Assembly (NCBI GenBank): GCA_945874745.1
Contig: CAMCIN010000009.1
Coordinates: forward strand, 1 to 34,122
DNA length: 34,122 nt
Direction: 5' to 3'
Source of the DNA: Akkermansia muciniphila
Lineage (GTDB): Bacteria > Verrucomicrobiota > Verrucomicrobiia > Chthoniobacterales > Chthoniobacteraceae
The position numbers and the translations under genes were made by a program. Positions 1 to 3,308 of the stretch are shown here, piece by piece. The stretch's first letter is position 1. The number at the start of each line of letters is the position of its first letter. The notes below the pieces were generated by a model. It searched no databases. It worked only from the letters and a program-made list of their open reading frames with translations, and was not told where the DNA came from.

Positions 1-3000
1 TGACGGTCCCACAACTCGCGTCGCTTTCGACCGTCCAGATGACCGGTCTGACGACCGCGCAGGTGGAGGCCTTCACCACCGCTCAGGCGCGCGCTCTGGG
101 GTTGAGCCAGCTTGTGGCTTTGGGGAGTGCCCAGATTCGCGCGATGGAAGCAGTTGATTTGGCGGCTCTGCGAACAGCGCAGCTTGTCGCGTTGAAGACT
201 GCGCAGGTGGCGGCTCTGACCACGACCCAGCTCGGGGCACTCGTGACGGAGCAGATGGCTGCCCTCACAGGAGTCCAAGTGCGGGCGCTCACCACGGAGC
301 AGGTGGCTTCGATCTCGACTGTTGCGCTCTCTGTTTTGACGCTCGGCCAGCTTGCTGCACTGACCACCAATCAGTTGCAGGCGCTGTCCGCGGAGAGCGT
401 GCGGACGCTTTCAAGCGTGCAGGTGGGCGGTTTTGTCACCGCTCAGATTCCAGGCTTTACGACAGAGCAAATTGGAGCGCTGACCTCTGTGCAGATTCGG
501 GGCTTTAACAGCGCGCAGGTGGCGTCACTCAATTCCGGCCAGGTCCAGGCGCTGACCACCGTGACTGTAGGCGCGCTTTCGGTGGGGCAGGTGGCGGCGT
601 TGACTTCGGTTCAGGTGGCGGCCTTGACCACGGCTCAGAGTGGAGTCTTGAGCGCTGCGCAGGCGGCAGCGCTTTCTGTTGTCCAGGTGCGCTCGCTGAC
701 CAGCAGTCAGGTGGCCGTTCTCACCACTGCGGCCACAACTGCTTTGTCTGCGGACCAAATTAGGGTGCTGACGAGCACCCAGCTGCGTGCATTGACCACG
801 GAGGGAGTCGGGGCTTTTACGACGGACCGGATGGCGGCCCTTTCCAGTACGCAGTTTACGGCTCTGCGGGACGAACAGCTCGCGGCGCTGACAACGGTGC
901 AGGTGCGGGCTCTGAAAACCTCGCAGCTTTCTGCGCTCAATTCACGGCAGGTTGCCGCGCTCGAAACTGTGGACCTAGCCGTGCTGACGGCTTTGCAGGT
1001 GGGCGGGCTGACTACCGGGCAGGTGGCCGGCCTGACGACGTTGCACGCTGGGGCATTGACTTCGGCACAGGTGCCGGGACTGAGTCTCGCGCAGATCCGT
1101 TCGCTGACGAGCGCCCAGATCGCGGCGCTTGGCATCGCCACTTCGACCGCATTGCGTTCCGACCAGATTGCGATTCTCTCGAGCACTCAGGTGCGGGCTC
1201 TGACAACAACAGCGGTTGAGGCTCTCACAACGCGTCAAGTGGCTGCGCTGACCGCTGCGCAGGTCGGGGCGCTGACCGCTGCGCAAGTGGCTGCGTTCAA
1301 CACGGCTCAGGCGAGAATTTTGGCAGTCGCGCAACTGGCGGCAATGAGCTCCTCTCAGATTCAGGCTCTGGAAACAACAGACTTGGAGGTGTTGACTAGC
1401 GGCCAGATCCGGGCTTTCACAACGGCGCAGGTCCCGGTCTTCACCACCGACCAGCTTTCGGCGTTTGGCACGGCCCAGGTCGCTGCGCTGACCACGCAGC
1501 AGGTCAGGGCGTTGGCGACCCAACAGCTTGCGGCGTTTACGGAGGAGGACCTCGGGGCGCTCAGCGCCGCGCAGGTGCTGGCGCTTGGCACGGCCCAGTT
1601 GCGGGCGCTCGAGACTGAAGGTCTGGGAGCACTTTCCTCGGGCCAGCTTGCGGCACTTTCGTTGGTTCAGATCGCAGGGTTGAGCACGGATCAGGTTGGT
1701 GCGCTCAGTTCCACCCAGATACGGGGGCTGAGTGCCGGGCAGTTATCGGCCCTGAGCACCCGCCAAATTCAAGCACTTACCTCGAGCAACTTTGGCGCTC
1801 TCTCCACGGGCCAGTTGAGGGGCCTCAAAACACAACAGATCTCGGCGTTGACTACCGACCAACTGTCTGCTTTGCGCTCCGCACAGGCGGCTTCTCTGAG
1901 CAGTTCCCAGATTAGGGCGCTGACAAGCAGCCAGGTTGCCTCTCTTTCCACGCTGGCCACTACCGCCTTGACGACTGCGCACGTCGTCACCCTGACGACC
2001 GCTCAGGTGGGGGCGCTGGCGCCGGATAACATCGGCGCATTGAGCCTCACTCAGACGTCTAGGCTGTCCCAAGCGCATTTTAAGGCCTTCACGACGGCGC
2101 AACTTGTGGCGCTGACTACCGCGCAGGCGAGGGCGTTGACCTCTGTGCAGGCAGCGGCGTTCAACTCCGCTCAGGTGCAGGCGCTGGAGGCGGAGGATGT
2201 GGCGGCCCTGACTACTGGCCTTTTGCGGACCCTCTCAACGGCCCATATCTCAGCCTTTACGACGACTCAGGTTGGGTCGCTCAGTTCTGCGCATTTCCGC
2301 GCGCTCACAGTTGACCACGTTCGGGCCCTGACGTTGGAGCAGGTGGGGGCCCTTTCGGGCGCGAATTTGGTGGCGCTCACAACGACCCAGATTGGCTCTC
2401 TGCGCAGTGTGCAGTTGCAGGCGCTGAGCACCGATGCCCTTGTGTCGGTGAGTGCAGCCCAAGTGAAGGCATTGAACACGGCGCAGTTGCCTGGATTGAC
2501 CACGGACCAGATGGGGGCACTCTCCACCCTCCAAGTGCGTGCATTGAGTACGTTACAGGTTGCCGGACTGAGCACCGCACAGGTTCAGGGGCTTGGAACA
2601 GCAAACTTCGCGGCGCTTTCAAGTCTGCAGGTTGCGGGGTTCTCGACGGTTCAGGTGGGTGCCTTTACCACAGAGGCCGCGGCCGCGTTGACTGCGGGCC
2701 AGGCCGCTGCGTTGAGCCTGTCCCAGGTGAGGGCGCTCCGCAGTATTCAGGTTGCCGCGCTTTCTACCTCAGCAATGTTGGCTCTCACGAGTTCCCAAGT
2801 GGCGGTCCTTTCGACGGGCCAGCTACAGGCAATCCGTACGGAAGGGCTTGAATTGTTATCGTCTCGGCAGCTTGCTGCCCTTTCGAGTGTCCAAATGGGC
2901 AGCCTGACCACTGTTCAGATCGTGGCGCTTACGACATTGCAAGTGCCGGTGCTGACGACCGCGCAGGTCAGAGCACTGGGCGCTACCCAGTTGGCAGCCT

Positions 3001-3308
3001 TGGAGACACAGGATGTGGGTGCTCTCACAGGAGCCCAGCTTGGGGCCTTCAGGCTCAATACGGCCGAGGCGTTCGCGCTCTCGACAAGCCAGATTGTGGC
3101 TCTGACTACAGCGGCGGTTCGGGGCATGACCACGAGTCAGTTGCGCACGCTGAGCACGGAGCAGGTTGTGGCAATTGCCAGCACCCAAATGAGCGCGATG
3201 TCCACGACACAGCTTTGGGCGTTCACCTCCACTCAGGTGATGGCAATTACCTCATTGCAGCAGGCGCCGCTGACTCCTGCACAGCTCAATGCGCTCTACC
3301 ACGCTTAG
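1..3308 (+). CDS. Giant tandem octapeptide-repeat protein (3' part; 5' end outside window)
   Basis: Single open frame of L-[TS]-[TS]-x-Q-[VIL]-x-A units. The supplied ORF (39..3308) parses exactly as MTG + 125 units of 8 aa + one 10-aa unit + 9 units of 8 aa + LYHA = 1089 aa. The same frame upstream of the ATG at 39 reads (L)TVPQLAS-LSTVQMTG, so the repeat continues to the window edge and that ATG is internal. Confidence 0.9.
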   Translation, partial: TVPQLASLSTVQMTGLTTAQVEAFTTAQARALGLSQLVALGSAQIRAMEAVDLAALRTAQLVALKTAQVAALTTTQLGALVTEQMAALTGVQVRALTTEQVASISTVALSVLTLGQLAALTTNQLQALSAESVRTLSSVQVGGFVTAQIPGFTTEQIGALTSVQIRGFNSAQVASLNSGQVQALTTVTVGALSVGQVAALTSVQVAALTTAQSGVLSAAQAAALSVVQVRSLTSSQVAVLTTAATTALSADQIRVLTSTQLRALTTEGVGAFTTDRMAALSSTQFTALRDEQLAALTTVQVRALKTSQLSALNSRQVAALETVDLAVLTALQVGGLTTGQVAGLTTLHAGALTSAQVPGLSLAQIRSLTSAQIAALGIATSTALRSDQIAILSSTQVRALTTTAVEALTTRQVAALTAAQVGALTAAQVAAFNTAQARILAVAQLAAMSSSQIQALETTDLEVLTSGQIRAFTTAQVPVFTTDQLSAFGTAQVAALTTQQVRALATQQLAAFTEEDLGALSAAQVLALGTAQLRALETEGLGALSSGQLAALSLVQIAGLSTDQVGALSSTQIRGLSAGQLSALSTRQIQALTSSNFGALSTGQLRGLKTQQISALTTDQLSALRSAQAASLSSSQIRALTSSQVASLSTLATTALTTAHVVTLTTAQVGALAPDNIGALSLTQTSRLSQAHFKAFTTAQLVALTTAQARALTSVQAAAFNSAQVQALEAEDVAALTTGLLRTLSTAHISAFTTTQVGSLSSAHFRALTVDHVRALTLEQVGALSGANLVALTTTQIGSLRSVQLQALSTDALVSVSAAQVKALNTAQLPGLTTDQMGALSTLQVRALSTLQVAGLSTAQVQGLGTANFAALSSLQVAGFSTVQVGAFTTEAAAALTAGQAAALSLSQVRALRSIQVAALSTSAMLALTSSQVAVLSTGQLQAIRTEGLELLSSRQLAALSSVQMGSLTTVQIVALTTLQVPVLTTAQVRALGATQLAALETQDVGALTGAQLGAFRLNTAEAFALSTSQIVALTTAAVRGMTTSQLRTLSTEQVVAIASTQMSAMSTTQLWAFTSTQVMAITSLQQAPLTPAQLNALYHA
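48..3293 (+). repeat. 135 tandem 24-bp (8-codon) coding units organised into a 17-unit (408-bp) higher-order repeat
   Basis: Manual unit-by-unit parse. Unit n starts at 48+24(n-1) up to unit 126 (3048). Loss of Gln5 recurs at units 5, 12 and 15 modulo 17. Confidence 0.9.

Follow-up and report, generated by a model that had tools for sequence, protein, structure and literature searches.

The 17-octapeptide period of an ALTTAQ repeat array from Akkermansia muciniphila probably corresponds to five turns of 3.4 octads each

Introduction

The window analysed here covers positions 1 to 34,122 of contig CAMCIN010000009.1 of an Akkermansia muciniphila genome (assembly GCA_945874745.1, forward strand) and is the start of this contig, called C9 (G000:C9) in the following. 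Its first open reading frame (ORF) runs off the contig edge and encodes a protein that consists almost entirely of octapeptide repeats (octads), in which residue 5 is exchanged with a strict period of 17 octads. This 17-unit period most likely equals five turns at 3.4 octads per turn, and arrays across the ALTTAQ repeat family (Pfam PF20080) follow the same rule. The protein very likely forms a tight right-handed alpha-solenoid rod, in which 17 octads would make five turns and the exchanged octads, classes 5, 12 and 15 of every 17, would line up as one longitudinal stripe. The odd period yields a structural constant of 0.2945 turn per octad, measured from sequence alone for a Pfam family without known function. 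The family-wide angle, the coupling of each octad to the octads three and four positions further on, the single helix per octad and the lengths of the duplicated blocks were all computed. Searches of the literature, which excluded most subscription journals and preprints, found nothing on the ALTTAQ family, whether on its repeat, on its fold or on the pair of genes discussed below, and no description of the winding constant, of quantised duplications or of a link to GT41 enzymes and type I secretion; they also found no 17-octapeptide super-period, of which the original prediction knew none either.

The period in the window

As a member of a repeat family that is known but uncharacterised, the protein is unremarkable: it matches PF20080 (ALTTAQ_rpt) with 640 bits (cut-off 26.4, E 9.7e-198, 41 passing stretches), and the family consensus A-L-T-T-A-Q recurs in its 136 head-to-tail octads. 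When the sequence is parsed from base 48 into 125 octads, residue 5 is Gln or His except in all 22 units that are expected to deviate (units 5, 12, 15, 22, 29, 32, 39, 46, 49, 56, 63, 66, 73, 80, 83, 90, 97, 100, 107, 114, 117 and 124) and in units 33, 91 and 110, which reproduces an earlier hand count exactly. Other classes follow the same period, as had also been claimed: residue 7 is Arg in 7/7 class-10 and 7/8 class-2 units, and a variant with Glu2 and Asp5 (E2/D5) occurs in five of the eight class-5 units, of which unit 5 begins with Met instead of Leu. The autocorrelation of the units lacking Gln at residue 5 (non-Q units) is 0.85 at lag 17 and 0.85 at lag 34, compared to a maximum of 0.53 in 20,000 shuffles, for each of which the largest value at any lag from 1 to 45 was taken. 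At the DNA level, self-identity peaks at 408, 816 and 1224 bp (0.53-0.55 versus about 0.49 at other multiples of 24 bp). The units within a block are truly diverged, since the identity of whole units at lag 17 shows only a modest excess (0.419, against a null mean of maxima of 0.395; p = 0.057 without column 5).

The non-Q units give a periodogram whose peak lies not at 17 units but at 3.396 units (power 23), i.e. at 5/17 turn per octad (permutation p = 0.0002 at the frequency f0). Multiplication of the class numbers by 5 modulo 17 converts 5, 12 and 15 into 8, 9 and 7, which are direct neighbours; no other multiplier brings the three together, and the multiplier 5 does so for 17 of 680 triples. 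The three neighbouring phases and the position of the peak together suggest a helix with 3.4 octads per turn and one special face. The period had been ascribed either to a structural constraint, such as one superhelical turn or a repeating ligand site, or to an old block-wise amplification; a constraint is supported by these results, while the single turn per 17 units gives way to five turns. The positions of the array, of its three deviating classes and of the modelled part are listed in Table 1.

Table 1. Positions of the octad array and its elements in the window.
Feature	Position	Strand	Remarks
ORF with octapeptide repeats almost throughout	3..3308	+	1101 aa; 5' end open at contig start; stop codon TAG at 3306-3308
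136 octads L-[TS]-[TS]-x-Q-[VIL]-x-A	24..3293	+	interrupted once, by 2 inserted residues after base 3047
125 gapless octads in strict 17-unit register	48..3047	+	period 136 aa, 408 bp
Class-5 octads, non-Q at residue 5	144..3023	+	8 copies: 144-167, 552-575, 960-983, 1368-1391, 1776-1799, 2184-2207, 2592-2615, 3000-3023; E2/D5 in 5/8; angular phase 0
Class-12 octads, non-Q at residue 5	312..2783	+	312-335, 720-743, 1128-1151, 1536-1559, 1944-1967, 2352-2375, 2760-2783; angular phase +1/17 turn
Class-15 octads, non-Q at residue 5	384..2855	+	384-407, 792-815, 1200-1223, 1608-1631, 2016-2039, 2424-2447, 2832-2855; angular phase -1/17 turn
34 octads modelled by AlphaFold2	456..1271	+	one alpha-helix of 5-6 residues per octad

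Rotation per octad in the ALTTAQ family

Arrays were gathered from relatives with the Pfam model and, in addition, from 85,000 species genomes, and were parsed with a single octad model, yielding a non-redundant set of 86 arrays with 18,902 octads. The non-Q units of this set are positively autocorrelated at lags 17, 34, 51, 27, 10, 44, 7, 24, 58 and 41, all of which lie within 0.06 turn of whole turns; the next positive lags are the half-turn lags 5, 12 and 22, and lag 3 is strongly negative. The clearest signal comes from residue 4, whose identity falls smoothly with angular distance and fits a cosine of 0.2945 turn per octad (bootstrap 0.294-0.295) with r = 0.95 after removal of multiples of 17 and masking of recent copies. 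Restricting this fit to lags <=16 gives an angle (alpha) of 0.294 with r = 0.96, and the best cosine among 25 unit-shuffled sets reached r = 0.48. Separate fits fall between 0.2935 and 0.2955 in seven of eight taxonomic groups (Verrucomicrobiota, Betaproteobacteria, Alphaproteobacteria, Pseudomonas, Pelobacter, Acidobacteria and Methylomonas); the eighth group, a single unplaced proteobacterium, gives 0.2965, and 11 arrays with little signal at lag 17 still give 0.2935 turn per octad. The fraction 5/17 is 0.2941, and 17 octads at 0.2945 turn add up to 5.006 turns.

A second part of the array gene is probably located on contig C82 of the same genome, where an N-terminal ORF of 686 aa with the same kind of octads runs off its own contig end and would be the front half of the gene. 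The strict 17-mer has decayed there to spacings such as 7,7,7,3,7; 11/17 of its non-Q units are found on one face, with a minor opposite cluster (p = 0.027 for the fundamental and 0.0006 for the second harmonic). The register is also lost at the other end of the array, in the 11 further octads that follow unit 125 and the 2-residue insertion and extend to about base 3293.

Recent internal duplications at the DNA level were detected in 30 arrays, with blocks of 17, 27, 34, 44, 10, 75, 48, 54, 82 and 119 octads. Nearly all block lengths are <=0.12 turn away from whole turns, the one clear exception being a block of about 12 octads (12.1). Both block duplication and conservation of the face operate, and the 17-mer block is the most exact carrier of the conserved face, because arrays with little signal at lag 17 keep the angle and the ORF on C82 keeps the face. 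The rotation constant would explain why duplications come in 7, 10, 17 or 27 octads. The units of the window itself are old, with codon identity hardly elevated from block to block.

Apart from the single stripe of the window, other arrangements were observed. The array ORF of locus L037 (G005:C77) encodes at least 6,821 aa with >830 octads and has its own 408-bp period with a 4,3,4,6 pattern of non-Q units. Two opposite non-Q stripes (spacings 5,2,5,3,2) are present in the arrays L045 and L046 (G008) and in Pseudomonas loci, and the fourth harmonic dominates in arrays of Aquabacterium; the number of stripes thus varies among lineages. A phylum-wide search with a strict cut-off added just one further genome, tblastn detected no relatives in phages, and a search of viral protein structures gave weak matches only. 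Relatives were found in 58 plasmid records, mostly alphaproteobacterial, in which they are named inconsistently, for example as heme utilization or as ice nucleation protein.

Octad chemistry and the putative rod

The Leu1/Val6 and Thr2/Gln5 pairs of the octad match the hydrophobic staple and the capping box that are known from helix N-termini. Two types of octads can be distinguished, one with Thr or Ser at residue 2 and Gln5, the other with Glu2 and Asp5; the latter combination was seen 1585 times versus 224 expected. In the models, residues 3 and 4 both face outward. One side of the rod has acidic residues at position 4, the opposite side Ala at position 4 and Lys or Arg at position 2. At residue 3, 86% of the octads have Thr or Ser, which no capping role at this position would require. 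The non-Q stripe, the acidic residue-4 stripe and the opposite Ala4 and Lys/Arg2 positions point to separate selection on the faces of the rod.

AlphaFold2 predicts 33 helices of >=4 residues for the 34 modelled octads (mean predicted local distance difference test score (pLDDT) 96.1, predicted template modelling score 0.83). If one turn takes 3.4 octads, octad i is expected to touch octads i+3 and i+4, and mutual information between alignment columns is indeed concentrated at lags 3 and 4, to which all of the ten strongest pairs belong; the values at equal angular phase, one and two blocks of 17 later, had been subtracted as a baseline. Ideal backbones with the AlphaFold2 helix pattern were sampled and filtered for these ten coupled pairs. 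Every backbone that meets the ten pairs is right-handed, and the median number of octads per turn is 3.36-3.38; unconstrained sampling favours left-handed backbones 3:1, ranges from 2.2 to 3.6 octads per turn and does not fix the geometry. What the sampling adds is the predicted handedness and agreement in the second digit, as the contact lags already confine the solutions to 3-4 octads per turn. Right-handedness and the exact geometry of the rod are therefore model-based estimates. On the basis of the helices with a pLDDT of 96 and of the i+3/i+4 coupling, the protein was assigned to the alpha-solenoids, in which successive helices stack into a superhelix.

According to the proposed explanation, each octad would form one short helix, closed by the Leu1-Val6 staple and the capping box between Thr/Ser2 and Gln5. 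The chain would advance by 0.2945 turn (106 degrees) per octad, so that one turn would take 3.40 octads or 27.2 residues, and each octad would pack on the octads three and four further along. Octads 17 apart would be stacked after 5.006 turns, and those 7 or 10 apart nearly so (2.06 and 2.94 turns). Classes 5, 12 and 15, with offsets of 0, 7 and 10 and hence phases of 0, +1/17 and -1/17, would form a narrow stripe along the rod, in which the Gln between turns is replaced by D, N, G, A, S or T. Duplicated blocks may be kept when their length is close to whole turns, because only such lengths would hold each face in register, and 408-bp blocks would therefore prevail. Judged by the gene neighbourhood of relatives, the rod may be exported by a type I secretion system and O-glycosylated by a GT41 enzyme.

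Alternative explanations

The same period would arise by descent alone, if an ancestral 17-octad block had been amplified in tandem and the period were a mere fossil without structural meaning. Codon identity in the window is weakly raised at lags 34 and 51 (0.42-0.43 versus 0.38, standard deviation 0.025), class-specific oddities such as LExxD, R7 and ATTA are retained, and recent copies of 17-blocks are frequent in other arrays. However, class patterns vary among arrays while the angle is constant, the spacings 7, 10, 24, 27 and 44 are near-whole turns yet no multiples of 17, and the ORF on C82 retains the face although it has lost the 17-mer. As the angle also survives the masking of copies, the restriction to lags <=16 and the choice of arrays with little signal at lag 17, pure block descent was rejected as the sole cause and is considered very improbable. 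Blocks are indeed duplicated, as had originally been suggested, but arrays with low 17-periodicity obey the same rotation and block lengths are nearly always close to integer turns. More likely than not, the two are combined: the fold would set the angle, and the strict 17 register of this gene would stem from an old amplification of blocks and have been maintained afterwards by selection on the face. Such a combination is compatible with the five-turn rod and refines it. It agrees with the residual class-specific similarity of residues 5 and 7 at lags 17, 34 and 51, with the weak DNA trace and with the loss of the strict register both on C82 and after unit 125; the DNA trace, however, is faint and could also be produced by composition or by selection at the protein level.

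The deviating classes could instead mark a repeating ligand or metal site, with E2/D5 octads binding Ca2+ or another ligand every 2-3 turns. The tight coupling of Glu2 and Asp5 within an octad would fit such a site, as would the preference of Val7 for E2/D5 octads four positions further on and the recurrence of these octads at spacings of 7, 10, 17 and 27. In the models, however, Asp5 lies between turns and not on the surface, two of the three classes of the window stripe are mostly A, G, N or S rather than acidic, and pairs of Asp5 residues at lags 1 and 3 are strongly depleted (51 versus about 342), which argues against a multi-carboxylate cluster formed by Asp5; such a site is regarded as improbable. 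Even less credible, and close to negligible, is an alias of the measured angle as the true geometry, namely 1.42 octads per turn (0.7055 turn per octad) or the second harmonic of 2.43. Each of the two accounts equally well for part of the non-Q pattern, but a helix and a loop cannot fit into 11 residues per turn, residue 4 shows 0.2945 and hardly 0.411, and coupling is found at lags 3 and 4 instead of 1-2 or 2-3, by which both aliases were ruled out.

Several observations weigh against the exported five-turn rod. Within the window, only column 5 carries the angle, and columns 4 and 7 peak at other frequencies. The value of 3.4 octads per turn is based on statistics of the octads and on sampled backbones, not on structure coordinates; the set of contacts at lags 3 and 4 by itself confines solutions to about 3-4 octads per turn, and the pitch of the sampled backbones ended up at the lower limit that the filter allowed. 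Foldseek returned no close solved fold, the best match being mesothelin with a template modelling (TM) score of about 0.3-0.4. With respect to export, neither a GT41 nor a secretion gene is present at the window locus, exporter and adaptor are likewise not found beside the array on C82, and the ABC exporter of the relatives has no close homologue in the window's genome (33% identity at best). Finally, a higher Thr/Ser content of GT41-linked arrays was considered and rejected, as the content is equal in GT41-linked and other arrays.

Gene neighbourhood and putative export

A GT41 gene is located near the array in 36/84 loci of relatives, mostly directly beside it, an ATP-binding cassette (ABC) exporter gene in 14 and an HlyD adaptor gene in 11; these 84 loci are not all independent and include a few weak matches. 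The GT41 proteins (PF13844, O-GlcNAc-transferase-like, with TPR) are encoded near arrays in Pseudomonas, Burkholderiales, Alphaproteobacteria, Acidobacteria and Verrucomicrobiota (L082, L132, L128, L039, L137 and about 30 other loci), and GT41 is present in 12/13 PF20080-positive versus 13/44 negative relatives (p = 7e-5). On a contig of the same genus (L147, G011:C196, 4-6623), the array, ABC, HlyD and GT41 genes follow each other in a row. Two contigs of the same family (L050, G024:C16 and L052, G013:C76) contain the array followed by the ABC exporter and HlyD, and in the Rhodobacterales locus L102 the ABC, HlyD and GT41 genes are all located around the array.

At their ends, proteobacterial arrays carry an acidic LDLNGDG domain that matches the EF-hand; verrucomicrobial arrays lack it. 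This C-terminal domain of about 250 residues (L062, L068 and others; LDLNGDGV...GWV...DGLLVMDRNGDG...ELFG) has no NCBIfam name and only a weak Pfam EF-hand match. The window protein has no C-terminal domain, be it calcium-binding or for secretion, and ends in octads followed by LYHA. Verrucomicrobial array ends (L039-L056) often carry a short tail, LNALF-x-G-N-N, the counterpart of which is LNALYHA in the window; it is possibly an export or end-cap signal. No signal peptide is visible in the ORF at 3..3308, whose N-terminus lies beyond the contig start. Among further Pfam matches (LRR/EndoS, gp5 and fibrinogen-binding), only LRR_EndoS passes its cut-off (45 bits), over a stretch of 39 residues, and was taken as a cross-match of the leucine-rich octads. 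On C82, genes resembling those for GDP-L-fucose synthase and GDP-mannose 4,6-dehydratase (L006 2138-4305; named by the look of their sequences) are oriented divergently from the N-terminal half of the array.

From the gene neighbourhood of the relatives, we infer that the rod is secreted by a type I system and possibly O-glycosylated by GT41 on its Thr/Ser surface. Whether the window protein is a long exported rod, outside the cell or on its surface, is an even bet on the same grounds. The chances are similarly balanced that ALTTAQ proteins in general are widespread, giant, type I-secreted rods, possibly glycosylated by GT41, whose functional stripes along the rod result from the non-integer winding at 3.4 octads per turn, whose duplications are quantised to near-whole turns (7, 10, 17, 27) and whose angle can be read from the sequence. 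A role of the stripe as a contact surface, for side-by-side packing or for contact with a ligand, is tentative and rather doubtful. The link to GT41 and a type I exporter makes the function of many array proteins testable.

Comparison with known systems

The Pfam model of PF20080 describes the same octapeptide, but is 38 residues long and does not contain the 17-octad period. HeliScrew4 (PDB 9zem) consists of octads of the type L-[TS]-P-[ED]-[QK]-[IVF]-A-A, which match the array in sequence over 109 residues (E 4e-14); the protein has just 120 residues and is, judging by its name, apparently designed. It was not among the Foldseek matches, for which the library contained structures released up to April 2026. 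The best of these matches, the superhelix of mesothelin, stereocilin and otoancorin, is a right-handed solenoid of short helices like the array model. Mesothelin comprises 24 helices in nine layers (PMC10035497), i.e. about 2.7 irregular, longer helices per layer in contrast to the 3.4 uniform octads of the array; the two do not match in sequence, and TM scores of 0.26-0.38 for full-length mesothelin chains are below the value of 0.5 above which a common fold would be assumed. The arrays of the relatives further resemble the type I-secreted giant repeat proteins of proteobacteria, such as the BapA/RTX-type adhesins, in their very large size and in the adjacent ABC and HlyD genes, which are present in L147, L050 and L052 and absent from the window and C82. 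The likeness extends to the C-terminus in proteobacterial arrays, which possess the LDLNGDG domain with its EF-hand match, while the verrucomicrobial proteins are without this domain. However, the repeats of these adhesins are rich in beta-structure, whereas the array is built of alpha-solenoid octads, and many of the array loci additionally carry a GT41 gene.

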